Assembly (NCBI GenBank): GCA_020851635.1
Contig: JADZCJ010000124.1
Location: forward strand, 1-58,199
Length of the DNA: 58,199 nucleotides
Direction: 5' to 3'
Origin: Anaerolineae bacterium
Lineage (GTDB): Bacteria > Chloroflexota > Anaerolineae > UBA4142 > SHND01
The position numbers and the translations under genes were made by a program. How positions within the stretch are numbered: the first letter of the stretch is position 1; every line of letters begins with the position of its first letter. This document shows, piece after piece, positions 24,197 through 55,898 of the stretch. Below the pieces are notes generated by a model, which saw only the letters and a list, made by a program, of their open reading frames with translations, did no database searches and was not told the DNA's origin.

Positions 24197-27100
24197 TTAC
24201 GCCAGACGTTTCACCTCGATCGCGCCGCCGCTCAAATACTTGGTCATAAACTCGTTCTCGTGTCCGGGCGTGAACCCGGTTTCTACCGCTTCCCATTTGC
24301 CTTTGCCGTCCAGTCCGCCGTCTTCCGCCTTGGTAACCTTGACCAGCGTCTCCTTGGGCACCGTGTTGAGCGCGTGATTGTCCGCCTCGCCGCCAAAAAT
24401 AAACTGCATGCCCGTTTTTTGTTTGTGGAACAATGTATCGGTTTGATGCATCGGCATTGACCAGTCGCGCGTCACAGACTGCTGCGACCCGTACCGCAGG
24501 TTCGCCTGGTAGCCCGTGCCTTCGGACATTGCCAGACCGTCCGGACGTGTCTCGTGCGCGCGGACCGATCTTTCGGTTGCCATAAAGGGCGAGTGTTTGA
24601 GCATGACAATGTGATACGGGTAGGCGGGGTTGTATTTTGCGCGCAGCATCAGGCGCGATACCTTGTAGAATGGGTCGTCGGGTTTCCAGCCGATATACGG
24701 ACGGTCGGCGGGGTTGGCGTCCAGATAGACGTAATCGCCATCCTCGATCCCCAGGTCTTTGGCAGCTTGCGGATTGATATGCAGTTGATGATCGCCGGGT
24801 CCAGGCAGCCGTTTGTCCATCCGGTAGGGGTCGCCAAAGTTCGAATCGAGAATGATCGTCCAGTCCACCGTGCTCCATGAGGAATGGACGCGATGCCGCG
24901 TTTTGGGTGTGAGACAGTAAAACGAATACCCTTTTGCCCATAACGGGTTTTGCGTGCCTTTGACCTTGTCCCAACTCATCGCGATATTGCGTACCGTGCG
25001 TTCTTCCCAACCGAGCGCATCCTGCGGAATCCCATAATCGTCGGGTTTGAGAAACCGCGAGGTGCTGACGATCACGTTCGGCAAATACGGCGTCGCCTCG
25101 GGTCCTTCGCGGTGTGAGATCATGTTTTCGCCATACTCGATCGCCTCGGGAATATCGCAGTAGGCATCGAGCCGTCCTGTCGCCGTATAGAATGGGACCG
25201 AATCATGAATCTGTTCCCAGAACGGGACGCGCGGATAGGTGCGAAAGAGCATCAGCGCCGCGCCCGGCTCGCCATACTTGCCCGCCATAATGTCCTCCAG
25301 CTTGTAGCCGCTCGTCGTCAACGATGAATCGAGCAGACGCTGGATATACACGTCGGGTTTGCCTTCGTGGATAAACTTCCAGTAATCAGAGAATCTCGAA
25401 TCTCCAATCTCTTTTCCAATCGCCTGCGCCACCTCCGCCAGGATGCGCGAATCGTCGCGCGTGTCATACAGCGGTTGGATGCCGCCTTTCCAGATTTGAA
25501 GAAACGGGTTCGAACAGGACGCGGTGATTTCCAGAGTCTCGAATTCTGCCCATGAATTTGCCGCCAGCGCAAAATCGGCGTATTCGACCGTCGCGGTCAT
25601 CTCGATGTCGGTGGTGATGATCAATTCGAGATTGGGATTGACGTTCTTGATCATCTCGTAATGATGTTTTGCATTGTTGAGCAAATTGACATTGGTGACG
25701 AACTGCACTTTGGTCGGCGTGGGCATATGCGTCTTGCCGGTAAACACTTTGCGCCCATAGCGGGGTGTCTCGACGATCAAGGGGCGTTCCGAATGATTCC
25801 AGTACGCGGGTTCCTCGTCGCGAGAATACGCGTGCGCGTGAATCTCTTTGCCCGGCGCGCTCGCGTCGAGGGTCATGTGGAACGGGTCTTCGGCGACCCA
25901 GCCCTTGAAACCGGGTCCCGTCTCGGGCGACCCCTGAAAGAGCGCGGATTTATAGTTGCCCGCCCATGTGTAACATCCCGCGCCGAGCTTGCCGATATTT
26001 CCCGTCAGCATCAACGGCAAAAACTGCGCGCGGTTGGCGAGCGTGGCATGGAACCAGTGATTGATCCCCTCGCCGATGTGAATCGCCGCGGGTTGAATCG
26101 TCGCAATGTCGTTCGCCAATCTTTCGATGAGCGGTTTGGGCGCGTGTGTGATCTCGGCGACAGTGTCGAGGTCGTAATCCTTGAGATGTTCCTTGTACAT
26201 TACCCACAACGTCAAGACTTCGACTTGAGACCCGTCTGCCAGCTGCACCTGTCCCGACCAATCGAGTTCAGGAGTGATTCCTTTTTGTGTCAGCTGTTCC
26301 CCCACATCGCCGCGCGTGACCGCCACGAGTTCGCCGCGCTTGGCGTCACGCACCACATAATCGCCCAAAACCTCGTACTGCTCTTGGGTCAGCCCCTGCG
26401 TCTTGAAACTGTAGCTATCCGCTTCAAGCCCCAGCTTGTAGTCCGGGAACACGTCGCTCGCGCTCAGGCGTTTGAGGTTGTCCGCGCGCACGAGCAGCGG
26501 AAAATCGGTAAAGCGGGTGACAAAGTCCTCGTCATAACGCCGATTGTCCATGAGCCAGCGCGTTACGCCCAAAAAGAGCGCCGTATCGGTCTCGGGACGA
26601 ATCGGAATCCAATAATCCGCTTTGGTCGCAGGCGGCGAGTATTCGGGCGTGATGGCGACGATTTTTGCCCCGCGCTCCATCGCCTCGATAAAAAAGTGCG
26701 ACTCGGGCATTTTGTTTTCGACCAGATTCTTGCCGCACTGGATATGCAAAAGCGAATTGCGTAGATCGTTAAAATCCTCGTCGGACGCCTGCAAGCCCGT
26801 CGTAAACGGATGTCCCGGCGCCTGATCGCCGTGCCAGGTGTAATTCGACCAATTGCGCCCGCCCAGCGCCTCCTCTTCACTCACCCCGCGTACTTTTTCG
26901 TCCAGCAGCGCGAGCGTGTTGGCAAAACGATACATGCCGTATTTGCCGATCACACCGAGCAAGCCCATCCCGCCGCGACACTTGAAGGTGCGCGTGCCCG
27001 CCTCACCCATCGCCTCGACCATCTCTGGAGGATACCCCTGCCGGAGCAACAATTCTGCGCCCGCTTTGCCCGAATAGCGTTTCGCAATCGCAACCATGCC

Positions 27101-27646
27101 GCGCGCGAGATAGCTGTATGCCGTGTCCCACGAGACGGGCAGCAGTTCGTCTGATCCGCGCGCGTCGAACTTGAATTTGGTCTTGTTCGCCGCGTCCAGC
27201 TCGGGAAAACCCGCATCCGCCCATTCCTGCCAACCCTTGCGCATCAACGGACCCTTGAGCCGGTGGGGACCATACAAGCGACGATGAAAGGTCTGCCCCT
27301 TTTTGCAGCCGCGCGGGTGCCAGTGCGGAGTTGCCGTATTGCCATAGAGGTCGGCATACTTGGCTACGTCATAATTCGGCTCTGCGCGCAGGATGATGCC
27401 ATTGCGCACAAAAGCGCGCATCCGGCACGCATGCGTGTCATTCGGCGAACAGACAAAGGCAAAAGACGAGTCGTAGCGATATTGATCGCGATAAATCTTT
27501 TCCCACGCGCGATCGGGATACTCTGACAGCGGATTGCCCACCGAGATTGGCTCGAGCAATTTGATGTCGAGGTCGGCGAATGGCAGGGTGATGACTGCAG
27601 CCGCAGAAAGCTTGAGAAACGAGCGACGCGAGAGATTATAAGACAT
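24197..27646 (-). CDS. Tat-exported molybdopterin oxidoreductase catalytic subunit (NxrA/pNarG-like)
   Basis: 1149 residues; GGAG lies seven bases before the ATG. The N-terminus has a twin-arginine signal (SRRSFLKLSAAAVITLPF, residues 6-23). The cluster region has C66, Asp70, C74 and C114 in the spacing where NarG has His-x3-Cys-x3-Cys and a later Cys. NYTWHGDQAPGHP (268-280) holds Asp274, the expected aspartate molybdenum ligand of type II enzymes. Length, the HWHPRGCKKGQTFHRRLYGP block and the association with an EB_dh subunit point to the periplasmic nitrate reductase/nitrite oxidoreductase branch, not cytoplasmic NarG. It would oxidise nitrite or reduce nitrate (or chlorate, selenate or similar) outside the membrane with bis-MGD. 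Direction and substrate cannot be read from sequence. Confidence 0.85.
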   Translation of the reverse strand: MSYNLSRRSFLKLSAAAVITLPFADLDIKLLEPISVGNPLSEYPDRAWEKIYRDQYRYDSSFAFVCSPNDTHACRMRAFVRNGIILRAEPNYDVAKYADLYGNTATPHWHPRGCKKGQTFHRRLYGPHRLKGPLMRKGWQEWADAGFPELDAANKTKFKFDARGSDELLPVSWDTAYSYLARGMVAIAKRYSGKAGAELLLRQGYPPEMVEAMGEAGTRTFKCRGGMGLLGVIGKYGMYRFANTLALLDEKVRGVSEEEALGGRNWSNYTWHGDQAPGHPFTTGLQASDEDFNDLRNSLLHIQCGKNLVENKMPESHFFIEAMERGAKIVAITPEYSPPATKADYWIPIRPETDTALFLGVTRWLMDNRRYDEDFVTRFTDFPLLVRADNLKRLSASDVFPDYKLGLEADSYSFKTQGLTQEQYEVLGDYVVRDAKRGELVAVTRGDVGEQLTQKGITPELDWSGQVQLADGSQVEVLTLWVMYKEHLKDYDLDTVAEITHAPKPLIERLANDIATIQPAAIHIGEGINHWFHATLANRAQFLPLMLTGNIGKLGAGCYTWAGNYKSALFQGSPETGPGFKGWVAEDPFHMTLDASAPGKEIHAHAYSRDEEPAYWNHSERPLIVETPRYGRKVFTGKTHMPTPTKVQFVTNVNLLNNAKHHYEMIKNVNPNLELIITTDIEMTATVEYADFALAANSWAEFETLEITASCSNPFLQIWKGGIQPLYDTRDDSRILAEVAQAIGKEIGDSRFSDYWKFIHEGKPDVYIQRLLDSSLTTSGYKLEDIMAGKYGEPGAALMLFRTYPRVPFWEQIHDSVPFYTATGRLDAYCDIPEAIEYGENMISHREGPEATPYLPNVIVSTSRFLKPDDYGIPQDALGWEERTVRNIAMSWDKVKGTQNPLWAKGYSFYCLTPKTRHRVHSSWSTVDWTIILDSNFGDPYRMDKRLPGPGDHQLHINPQAAKDLGIEDGDYVYLDANPADRPYIGWKPDDPFYKVSRLMLRAKYNPAYPYHIVMLKHSPFMATERSVRAHETRPDGLAMSEGTGYQANLRYGSQQSVTRDWSMPMHQTDTLFHKQKTGMQFIFGGEADNHALNTVPKETLVKVTKAEDGGLDGKGKWEAVETGFTPGHENEFMTKYLSGGAIEVKRLA

Positions 27647-54488: not shown

Positions 54489-54490
54489 AC

Positions 54491-54516
54491 CCGGGACCGC
54501 AAATCTCCCGATTTGC
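54491..54516 (+). repeat. 26-nt direct repeat, left copy, with hairpin
   Basis: The 26 bases are identical to 55810-55835. The inner part GCAAATCTCCCGATTTGC is a perfect 7-bp hairpin with a four-base loop. The two copies bracket the pair of PqqD-like genes and are on the same strand. Confidence 0.85.
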
Positions 54517-54531
54517 GATTTGCCCTCCCCA

Positions 54532-54561
54532 TTGACACCGCTCAACTTGCGGGCTTATACT
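54532..54561 (+). promoter_or_regulatory. Strong sigma-70 promoter for the PqqD-like gene pair
   Basis: TTGACA (54532-54537), 18-bp spacer, TATACT (54556-54561): one of the best consensus promoters in the window. The expected start of transcription is about 54568, leaving a 32-nt leader that includes AAGGAGG eight bases before the ATG at 54600. Confidence 0.75.
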
Positions 54562-54599: not shown

Positions 54600-55121
54600 A
54601 TGAGTCGCACGACGCTACCTCTGGCTCGCAAGGACGGGCTTCAAATCCAAACCGTCCCGGGTGAAACGCTGGTCTATGACGGCAGCACGGACAAGGCGTA
54701 TGTCCTTTCGCCTTCGGCAGCTGCCGTATGGCGCGCCTGCAACGGCGCTCGCTCGGTGCAAGAGATTGCGCAGTACTTGTCCGCCGACACGCCAACAAAC
54801 GAACAGGTCGTGTGGTATGCGCTCGGACAGTTGAACGATTTGCTCGTCGAACCGGTCACCTTGCCAAAAGAGTTGGCGGGCATTTCTCGGCGGCAGTTCC
54901 TCAAACGCGCGAGCGTGGTCGCCGGTGCGGTTGCAATTCCCGTTGTCGTCAGCATTGTCGCCCCCTCACCCGCCCACGCCCAGTCGGTTAACATATGGTG
55001 CTGTATGTGCGCGAACGGAATCGGCAACAGCTATACCAACTGCGATCAATGTGATAGTTTTTGCCAAACGGTCGGGTCCACTTTGGCAAATTGTCTTCCC
55101 GGGCTATGCCCTCCCCCCTGA
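54600..55121 (+). CDS. PqqD-like domain fused to Tat signal and eight-Cys peptide (copy 1)
   Basis: 173 residues in three parts. Residues 15-88 form a PqqD-like (winged-helix, peptide-binding) domain: GETLVYDGSTDKAYVLSPSA, then AVWRACNGARSVQEIAQYL. Residues 95-127 are a twin-arginine signal in the middle of the protein: ISRRQFLKRA, a hydrophobic stretch to 121, and an AHA-Q cleavage site after 127. Residues 128-173 are a Cys-rich peptide with Cys at 134, 135, 137, 148, 151, 155, 165 and 170. Cleavage would export a 46-residue mature peptide and leave the PqqD part inside. The promoter and Shine-Dalgarno are strong, so expression is probably high. I know no characterised family with this arrangement; it is a possible modified-peptide (RiPP-like) or metal-binding precursor. 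Confidence 0.8.
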   Translation: MSRTTLPLARKDGLQIQTVPGETLVYDGSTDKAYVLSPSAAAVWRACNGARSVQEIAQYLSADTPTNEQVVWYALGQLNDLLVEPVTLPKELAGISRRQFLKRASVVAGAVAIPVVVSIVAPSPAHAQSVNIWCCMCANGIGNSYTNCDQCDSFCQTVGSTLANCLPGLCPPP

Positions 55122-55160
55122 TGGGGACATCCGCGCGATCGTTTTTCTCAGGCAACAGAC

Positions 55161-55679
55161 ATGTCACACACCATCCTCCCCCTCGCGCGCCGCGACGACC
55201 TCGTCATCCAAACGGCATCCGACGAAACGCTTGTGTTTGACCGCAAGACCGATAAAGCATACGTCCTTTCTCCCGCCGCCGCTGCCGTTTGGCGCGCCTG
55301 TGACGGCAAACGCAGCGTCCGAGAGATCGCGCACACCTTGCAGCTCGAGTCATCCGCAAACGAGCAAACGGTCTGGTATGCGTTGGGGCAGCTGAACGAG
55401 CTGCTGCAAGAACCCGTAACCTTGCCGCATGAAATGCGCGGCATCTCGCGGCGGCAGTTTTTGAAACGCGCGGGCATCGTCGCGGGGGCGGCGGCGATTC
55501 CCATCGTCGTCAGTGTCGTCGCGCCCACGCCCGCACACGCGCAATCCGGTCCCCCTATTTGCTGTGTCTGTAACGACGGGTTCTTTGACGTACAACCCGG
55601 TTGCGCGGATTGCGCCACAGTTTGCGCCGCACACGCCGGAGTCAACGCCTGCGACCCCGTCACCTCGTGTACCAACTGA
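55161..55679 (+). CDS. PqqD-like domain fused to Tat signal and eight-Cys peptide (copy 2)
   Basis: 172 residues, paralog of the preceding gene and only 39 bp after it. The PqqD-like part (DETLVFDRKTDKAYVLSPAA, AVWRACDGKRSVREIAHTL) and the Tat signal (ISRRQFLKRAGIVAGAAAIP, AHAQ at 125-128) line up residue for residue with copy 1. The mature peptide (128-172) differs in most residues but keeps all eight cysteines at 134, 135, 137, 148, 151, 155, 164 and 170. No maturase, radical SAM or peptidase gene lies within the window beside it. It is probably in the same transcript as copy 1; its own ribosome-binding site is weak. A terminator and the direct repeat follow. Confidence 0.8.
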   Translation: MSHTILPLARRDDLVIQTASDETLVFDRKTDKAYVLSPAAAAVWRACDGKRSVREIAHTLQLESSANEQTVWYALGQLNELLQEPVTLPHEMRGISRRQFLKRAGIVAGAAAIPIVVSVVAPTPAHAQSGPPICCVCNDGFFDVQPGCADCATVCAAHAGVNACDPVTSCTN

Positions 55680-55763: not shown

Positions 55764-55799
55764 AAAAAATTCGCGTGAACCCACTCACACGAATTTTTT
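55764..55799. terminator. Bidirectional terminator after the PqqD-like pair
   Basis: AAAAAATTCG (55764-55773) and CGAATTTTTT (55790-55799) form the arms, continued by GTG/CAC with one mismatch and an eight-base loop. Poly-A and poly-T flanks allow termination in both directions, so it ends the PqqD-like transcript and the opposing methyltransferase transcript. Confidence 0.8.
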
Positions 55800-55809
55800 C
55801 ATTCTCCCC

Positions 55810-55883
55810 CCGGGACCGCAAATCTCCCGATTTGCCCTCTCCCGATTTGCCCTCTCCCGATTTGCCCTCTCCCGATTTGCCCC
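55810..55883 (+). repeat. Right copy of 26-nt repeat plus 15-bp tandem array
   Basis: 55810-55835 duplicates 54491-54516. From 55824 the unit CTCCCGATTTGCCCT repeats four times with 15-bp periodicity (55824-55838, 55839-55853, 55854-55868 and 55869-55883, the last with one change). The array ends 16 bp before the methyltransferase stop. Confidence 0.9.
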
Positions 55884-55898
55884 TCCCCTTTTTCGCAT

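Follow-up and report, generated by a model that had tools for sequence, protein, structure and literature searches.

The window, that is, the whole stretch of 58,199 nucleotides analysed from a bacterium of the Anaerolineae, contains two adjacent paralogous genes, each of which encodes a PqqD-like domain, an internal twin-arginine (Tat) signal and a cysteine-rich tail in a single chain. We consider it rather probable that these genes encode precursors of secreted, disulfide-rich peptides of a pathway which operates with an RRE, an HprK-like kinase and an NTP_transf_5 enzyme, according to the logic of the LPP and paeninodin systems, the RRE being fused in cis to its own precursor. The relatives collected in this work suggest that the family is large and, it seems, undescribed, its members being secreted disulfide peptides which are probably phosphorylated.

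The two-gene unit

Gene 1 (54600..55121) encodes a protein of 173 amino acids and gene 2 (55161..55679), which follows after a gap of 39 bp, a paralog of 172 amino acids; both are ORFs on the forward strand with Pfam and NCBIfam matches, and gene 1 was modelled with AlphaFold as well. An earlier, sequence-only reading had described them as tandem paralogs made of a PqqD part, an internal Tat signal and a cysteine-rich tail of 45-46 residues, and the coordinates, the reading frames and the domain matches all agree with that description. In gene 1 the PqqD/RRE domain comprises residues 5-88 (54612..54863, forward strand) and the Tat signal residues 95-127 (54882..54980, forward strand), with the twin arginines at 97-98, the motif P114-x3-S118-x3-P122 and a predicted cleavage after A127. 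The predicted exported peptide, QSVNIWCCMC..., has 46 residues and 8 cysteines (54981..55118, forward strand). In gene 2 the corresponding parts, likewise on the forward strand, are found at 55173..55424 (PqqD/RRE domain), 55443..55541 (Tat signal) and 55542..55676 (predicted exported peptide QSGPPICCVC..., 45 residues, 8 cysteines). Since the first 128 residues of the two proteins are equal in length and 73% identical, the N-terminal parts align without a gap, as had been stated before, and both proteins carry RR at 97-98 and the AHA-Q cleavage motif at 125-128.

A sigma-70-type promoter-like site, TTGACA-18-TATACT (54532..54561, forward strand; 11/12 matches, against a chance expectation of 0.4 in the scanned region), is located 38 bp 5' of the start codon of gene 1. 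On the 3' side of gene 2 a terminator-like hairpin with an A/T-rich stem was predicted (55764..55799, with arms at 55764-55778 and 55785-55799; 66 nt, -19.7 kcal/mol, z -5.7). Because of the promoter-like site upstream and the strong hairpin downstream, the two genes look like a single two-gene transcription unit. Neither a kinase nor a nucleotidyltransferase nor a third PqqD gene was found in the window, so the earlier remark that no maturation enzyme lies there was correct. Searches among plasmids, viral contigs and PHROGs gave no match, thus there is no sign of phage or plasmid origin.

Two further features of the window may be recorded. The 27-nt sequence CCCGGGACCGCAAATCTCCCGATTTGC flanks the two-gene unit on either side (54490-54516 and 55809-55897), and its right-hand copy is followed by a 15-nt tandem repeat; this is perhaps a REP-like element or a mobile boundary. 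At 24197-27646 a protein of 1149 amino acids with an N-terminal Tat-like signal and a ferredoxin-like neighbour gene is encoded, which resembles a molybdopterin oxidoreductase, an ordinary Tat substrate.

The PqqD/RRE domain and the Tat signal

The assignment of the first 90 residues to PqqD held in the profile search: the Pfam PqqD model PF05402 gave 29.1 bits (1.3e-6) for gene 1 and 30.7 bits (4.2e-7) for gene 2, both above its gathering score of 23.4 bits. The cut-off of the PQQ biosynthesis protein PqqD model TIGR03859 (46 bits) was not reached (17.5 and 18.4 bits). The AlphaFold model of gene 1, computed with 58 relatives in the alignment, had a mean pLDDT of 91. Its N-terminal part has the bbb-aaa fold (strands 14-19, 22-27 and 32-36; helices 38-46, 53-60 and 68-77), with pLDDT mostly above 90. 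The best solved match was the lasso B1 protein 6jx3 (Z 8.4, 79 aligned residues, rmsd 2.3), and TbiB1 (5v1v) matched similarly (Z 8.0, 82 aligned, rmsd 2.3); these Z values are middling and are to be read together with the Pfam match. The N-terminal part, as modelled for gene 1, is an RRE, closest to the lasso RREs that were solved with leader peptides.

The NCBIfam Tat signal model TIGR01409 matched gene 1 at 3e-6 and gene 2 at 2e-5, above the model cut-off. Judged by sequence, both proteins have what is expected of a Tat substrate, that is, the twin-arginine motif, a hydrophobic stretch and an AxA site, and TatC is encoded in the same genome. In the model of gene 1 the signal contains a predicted strand (116-120) framed by P114, S118 and P122. 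These residues were conserved in 56/58, 41/58 and 58/58 members of the first alignment, and in 70/70, 64/70 and 70/70 proteins of the fresh set defined below. We judge such conservation inside an export signal to be unusual, and for this reason the RRE may bind its own signal, the predicted strand 116-120 being the candidate docking segment.

Lasso and LPP RREs bind a [YW]xxP motif. The aligned fusions showed no such motif in their signal part. Unfused versions also occur in the phylum, in which a standalone PqqD gene stands beside a small Tat precursor with [YW]xxP in its signal (WIKP in L041, WSKP in L042, YVKP in L044 and again in L046). These are four of the seven Tat peptides beside a standalone PqqD, and the automatic control for the motif is small, its two 'other' matches (L053, L055) coming likewise from loci chosen for a PqqD match. 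Such pairs suggest, in a small sample of sequences, the route by which the fusion may have arisen.

Size and distribution of the family

The genome to which the window belongs holds five fusion copies, namely the two window genes and those at C44:84645, C46:125106 (reverse strand) and C46:44306. Fusions were present in all five congener genomes searched (5/5), and clear fusions (E 3e-17 or better) in 9 of 400 genomes sampled from the phylum; the named records with fusions belong to Chloroflexota and Acidobacteriota. The copy number can be much higher in Pyrinomonadaceae, where 79 of 119 genomes had at least one fusion match, one of them (G421) having 44 and another (G430) at least 35. Two sets of relatives were used below: the first set consists of 69 non-redundant fusions from the first loci, the fresh set of 70 fusions from 60 further genomes. 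As relatives were collected in these numbers in two sets (69 and 70), a chance origin of the architecture is excluded.

Linkage to an HprK-like kinase and a nucleotidyltransferase

In most relatives the genes that accompany the fusions were those of an HprK_rel_A-like kinase and an NTP_transf_5 protein (PF14907). Both flank the precursor in L059, L061, L065, L066, L070, L074, L077, L078 and L081; in L083 they stand at about 3 kb from the fusion, while the kinase is found beside the precursor without NTP_transf_5 in L075, L076, L080 and L084. In the fresh test of 60 further genomes, counted per locus, the kinase was present at 45/60 loci and the kinase or NTP_transf_5 at 55/60, the kinase being usually on the same strand as the fusion. 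The sequence-only reading had expected maturation enzymes among the co-occurring genes and had named radical SAM proteins and oxidases among the candidates to look for. The expectation itself was borne out, since candidate enzymes co-occur in the relatives and one is encoded elsewhere in the own genome, but they are the kinase and NTP_transf_5 and not radical SAM proteins or oxidases. A sulfotransferase or thiol-redox proteins are linked in a few loci; in the own genome one paralog (L007) overlaps with the 5' end of such a sulfotransferase gene.

The kinase subfamily (E<=1e-50) was detected in nine genomes of the 400 sampled from the phylum, and these are precisely the genomes that carry fusions (hypergeometric 1.5e-18). 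Neighbours of fusions were among the sequences from which the kinase model was made, and five of these nine genomes match it by construction, therefore the informative part is the absence of the kinase from the other 391 genomes, and the P values overstate independence because the sequences are related. Against its 44 fusion matches, G421 has one kinase-NTP_transf_5 pair, with no precursor between, so any action of the kinase on these 44 copies must be in trans.

The own genome has one kinase of the subfamily (C107:29837-30655, locus L120), on a different contig from the window, with no precursor adjoining it. Its GKS P-loop and the invariant HAG, SDE and D positions are intact, and its gene setting is that of L070 in congener G004, where kinase, precursor and NTP_transf_5 stand together. 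No NTP_transf_5 of the cognate subfamily was recognised in the own genome, where four PF14907 matches fit the model only at 3e-4 to 3e-47.

Serine or threonine beside the predicted cleavage site

In the alignment column of residue 129, the second position after the AxA site, Ser or Thr was found in 53 of 58 aligned members. The automatic cleavage-site finder had misplaced several sites, and for this reason the column of these 58 members and, in case of the fresh set, a motif-based cut were used. With the latter, Ser or Thr occurred somewhere in +1 to +3 in 60/64 proteins as compared with 38% of Sec proteins. Only this Sec control is informative, the Tat-protein control for +2 having six sequences and not reaching significance (P 0.09). 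The residue is missing at +1 to +3 in L075, L077 and L081, and its position shifts among +1, +2 and +3 in many Acidobacteriota.

In the LPP system Ser3 of the core AQSNWK is the residue that LppK phosphorylates (PMC13381572), and in the case of pseudomycoidin PsmK phosphorylates a serine to which a hexose is added, for which PsmN is needed (PMC9266682). By analogy, and from its conservation, Ser129 of gene 1 (54984..54986, forward strand; +2 in the mature peptide), or the equivalent Ser/Thr, is the proposed phosphoacceptor of the HprK-like kinase (cf. PMC13381572).

The linkage and this residue also bear on two other explanations. According to the first, the proteins would be plain secreted disulfide mini-proteins, the PqqD part serving the Tat signal only as a chaperone of export or as a handle against folding and the peptide staying chemically unmodified, and the kinase and the NTP transferase would belong to other processes, e.g. 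signalling or polysaccharide synthesis. Many copies indeed lie far from any kinase (in the own genome, in G001-G003 and in the 20 G421 regions examined), and the kinase loci are often situated among polysaccharide genes. Nevertheless we regard this explanation as unlikely, because the kinase subfamily is nearly exclusive to genomes with fusions, the kinase or NTP_transf_5 accompanies 55/60 fresh loci with the kinase mostly on the same strand, and the Ser/Thr beside the cleavage site is conserved though the tails are otherwise hypervariable. According to the second, the kinase would have the PqqD domain or some separate polymer as its target; the domain would thus regulate an HprK-NTP surface-glycan system as one of its subunits (cf. 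NCBIfam 'HPr-rel-A'), and the cysteine tail would be an unrelated passenger that is exported with it. Polysaccharide genes surround the kinase at several loci, and the HprK_rel_A and HPr-rel-A PqqD models give matches, which are below cut-off. The RRE fold, however, is nearest to leader-binding lasso RREs, the unfused pairs (L041, L042, L044 and L046) join a standalone PqqD to a small Tat precursor with [YW]xxP, and in LPP and lasso clusters it is the precursor that HprK-like kinases target (PMC13381572, PMC9266682); the explanation is thus improbable.

The exported tails

The cysteine spacing reported for the two window tails, CCxC-x10-CxxCxxxC-x8/9-C-x4/5-C, was exact and was found again in two more paralogs of the own genome, so that the eight-cysteine scaffold is common to 4/5 of its copies. 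The gap lengths in these four are 0-1-10-2-3-9-4, 0-1-10-2-3-8-5, 0-1-10-2-3-9-4 and 0-1-10-2-3-8-4, and apart from the eight cysteines only the Ser at +2 is invariant in their exported parts. Over both sets of relatives the spacings differ wholly, but the number of cysteines remains even: among tails with at least 4 Cys it was even in 63/63 of the first set and in 68/69 of the fresh set, i.e. in 131/132 together, with counts from 4 to 22. For comparison, even numbers were obtained in 36/63 of the PqqD parts of the same proteins and in 62% of other proteins with at least 4 Cys. Such even numbers favour disulfides and disfavour metal ligands and lanthionines; judged from the sequences, the cysteines of tails with at least 4 Cys are probably all disulfide-bonded. 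Thiol-redox neighbours were identified at three loci, L077 (MauE and a MauD/TlpA-like protein), L085 (DUF4395 and thioredoxin) and L076, where a redoxin/TlpA-like domain is fused to the HprK-like kinase adjoining a PqqD-Tat-Cys precursor (L076:8111-9502, G172:C118).

The sequence-only reading had taken the use of Tat to imply folding or cofactor insertion in the cytoplasm, and the even cysteine numbers (63/63 and 68/69) speak against this and point to disulfides formed after export. Accordingly, a tail which binds a metal or cofactor and is loaded with it in the cytoplasm ahead of Tat export is very improbable, for although Tat export and the CxxC and CxxxC spacings of the four-paralog scaffold would suit it, the cysteine number is even in 131/132 tails of entirely different spacings, the identified linked genes include no cofactor-biogenesis gene and their redox members are thiol-disulfide proteins, and the shortest tails resemble disulfide knottins. 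Chemistry of the radical SAM, lanthionine or thiazole type was also considered, and is unlikely given the even cysteine number and the identified linked genes.

That a conserved carrier bears a variable cysteine cargo, as had been supposed, is well illustrated by the syntenic orthologs L061 and L065: their identity is 91% over the PqqD part and 97% over the signal, but falls to 33% over the tail. Among the G421 copies the mean identities are 44%, 52% and 23%, respectively. The tails range from 27-residue knottin-like peptides up to those with 16-22 Cys, and some have no cysteine at all: a collagen-like tail in L071, Pro/Thr repeats in L074 and L083 and a Gly-rich tail in L078. Since such tails exist, disulfides are not the unifying function.

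The tail of gene 1 modelled alone gave a predicted small strand-helix-strand fold (pLDDT 83), and its comparison with the PDB by sequence and by fold revealed no notable match. The sequence-only reading had named a tail that is a known domain as a refuting result, and the comparison of the gene 1 tail gave no such result for the window tails; some of the knottin-like tails of relatives weakly match venom knottins. One tail in G421 (L173:7524-, C37) contains repeated NCGxCGxxC units and weakly matches Stig1 (E 0.029).

Proposed pathway

We propose that the PqqD/RRE domain folds first. The hydrophobic P-x3-S-x3-P stretch of the attached Tat signal would be bound to it as an additional strand, after the model of a discrete RRE holding a leader peptide. 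The trans-acting HprK-like kinase would then phosphorylate the RRE-held precursor at the Ser/Thr beside the cleavage site (Ser129, +2); we infer this step from the kinase linkage, the conservation of that residue and LPP biochemistry. The NTP_transf_5 enzyme, or a sulfotransferase in single loci, may modify the product further. The motifs, and the TatC encoded in the genome, are consistent with a subsequent Tat export, in which a signal peptidase would cut after AxA and remove the RRE and the signal together. Finally the tail cysteines, whose number is even, would all pair outside the cell, aided in some loci by MauE/TlpA-like helpers. The hypervariable mature peptides probably have an extracellular site of action, candidate roles being those of antimicrobials, inhibitors, or matrix- or capsule-bound peptides.

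The RREs known so far are either discrete proteins or domains fused to modifying enzymes. Their fusion to a precursor and a Tat signal, for which no earlier report was found in the literature searched, reverses the recognition logic and would allow a single kinase to act on numerous unlinked precursors. If the proposal is true, the family is a source of bacterial disulfide mini-proteins, knottin-like ones included, in two widespread and poorly cultivated phyla, and it gives a direct test of the roles of the HprK-like kinase and NTP_transf_5, which are not fully resolved for LPP and paeninodin peptides. More tentatively, with a confidence that falls a little short of even, we suggest a distinct class of ribosomal mini-proteins: hypervariable, disulfide-rich and often knottin-like, with a cis RRE and a shared trans HprK-like kinase acting on Ser/Thr near the signal cleavage site, exported by Tat and not by a dedicated transporter, and reaching dozens of copies per genome in Acidobacteriota.

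Comparison with known systems

In paeninodin-type lasso peptides and in LPP RiPPs, phosphorylation and glycosylation have been connected with the pair of HprK-like kinase and NTP_transf_5. The LPPs are linear polyphosphorylated peptide RiPPs of Bacillota, described in 2026 with the genes LppA/K/B/S/N, whose lpp set comprises an RRE, HprK, an NTP transferase and an SpI-type peptidase (PMC13381572). LPP clusters and the fusion relatives have the RRE, the HprK-like kinase and the NTP transferase in common, and the linkage of the last two to the RRE/precursor, which characterises LPP, was found in the relatives (45/60 and 55/60 as above), whereas in the own genome only the unlinked kinase was found. 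In both, the N-terminal part of the precursor is conserved and the C-terminal part highly variable, a Ser stands directly behind the site of leader cleavage (AQS in the LPP core, AHA-QS in the window), and the clusters occur near polysaccharide genes. In contrast to LPP, the fusions have a Tat signal (AxA) as leader, mostly disulfide-rich tails, up to dozens of precursors in one genome with a trans-acting kinase, and hosts in Chloroflexota and Acidobacteriota; neither a dedicated SpI peptidase nor an MsbA-type transporter was seen at the fusion loci, apart from an NTP_transf_5-signal peptidase fusion in G035. Since the RRE is fused, the leader is a Tat signal with P-x3-S-x3-P, and the LPP leader motif YxxPxVLxHQxIxFETxxS is absent, the family was filed as LPP-like and not as LPP. 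Judged by sequence, the pathway is LPP-like in its enzymes and in the Ser position, and not LPP by definition.

The G035 protein just mentioned (L082:1478-3190, G035:C21) is an NTP_transf_5 fused to a signal peptidase S26 domain; an HprK-like kinase adjoins it, and a PqqD-Tat gene that encodes hardly any tail lies at a distance of about 4 kb. Another locus, in a genome of the window's order (L132:3571-7103, G018:C125), has PqqD, an HprK-like kinase, a small protein that is signal peptidase I-like by sequence and NTP_transf_5 in a row, that is, an LPP-like cluster, while LPP is said to be restricted to Bacillota.

The NCBIfam HPr-rel-A models (TIGR04352 for the kinase, TIGR04353 for PqqD) gave significant or weak partial matches; however, the kinases reached 47-73 of 200 bits and the PqqD 15.3 of 35. 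Since all scores were far under the curated cut-offs, the kinases of the relatives and the window PqqD are not members of HPr-rel-A.

In case of the knottins (inhibitor cystine knots) of animal venoms and plants, the C-C-CC-C-C framework occurs in 12/69 first-set tails, and the L059 tail weakly matches omega-atracotoxin (E 0.012). The fusion tails differ in being bacterial and Tat-exported behind an RRE, and they are known from sequence, with no fold solved and with knottin Pfam matches below the curated cut-offs; the two window tails have another cysteine scaffold, in which the C-C-CC-C-C framework is absent.

Lasso peptides of the paeninodin/pseudomycoidin type, which have a discrete B1 RRE, an HprK-like kinase and a nucleotidyltransferase, share with the window family the RRE fold (TbiB1 and the lasso B1 6jx3) and with its relatives the pair of tailoring enzymes. 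They differ in that the RRE is fused to the precursor in the window family and that in lasso peptides the kinase acts on the C-terminal Ser; moreover, neither the asparagine-synthase-like macrolactam synthetase nor the B2 protease was noticed near the fusions, as judged from the gene sequence starts. Congeners of the window's genome contain apparent lasso clusters with a sulfotransferase (L135:5951-11620 and L137:5010-10839), in which NTP, HprK-like kinase, sulfotransferase and PqqD genes were found together with apparent asparagine synthetase and lasso B2 genes.
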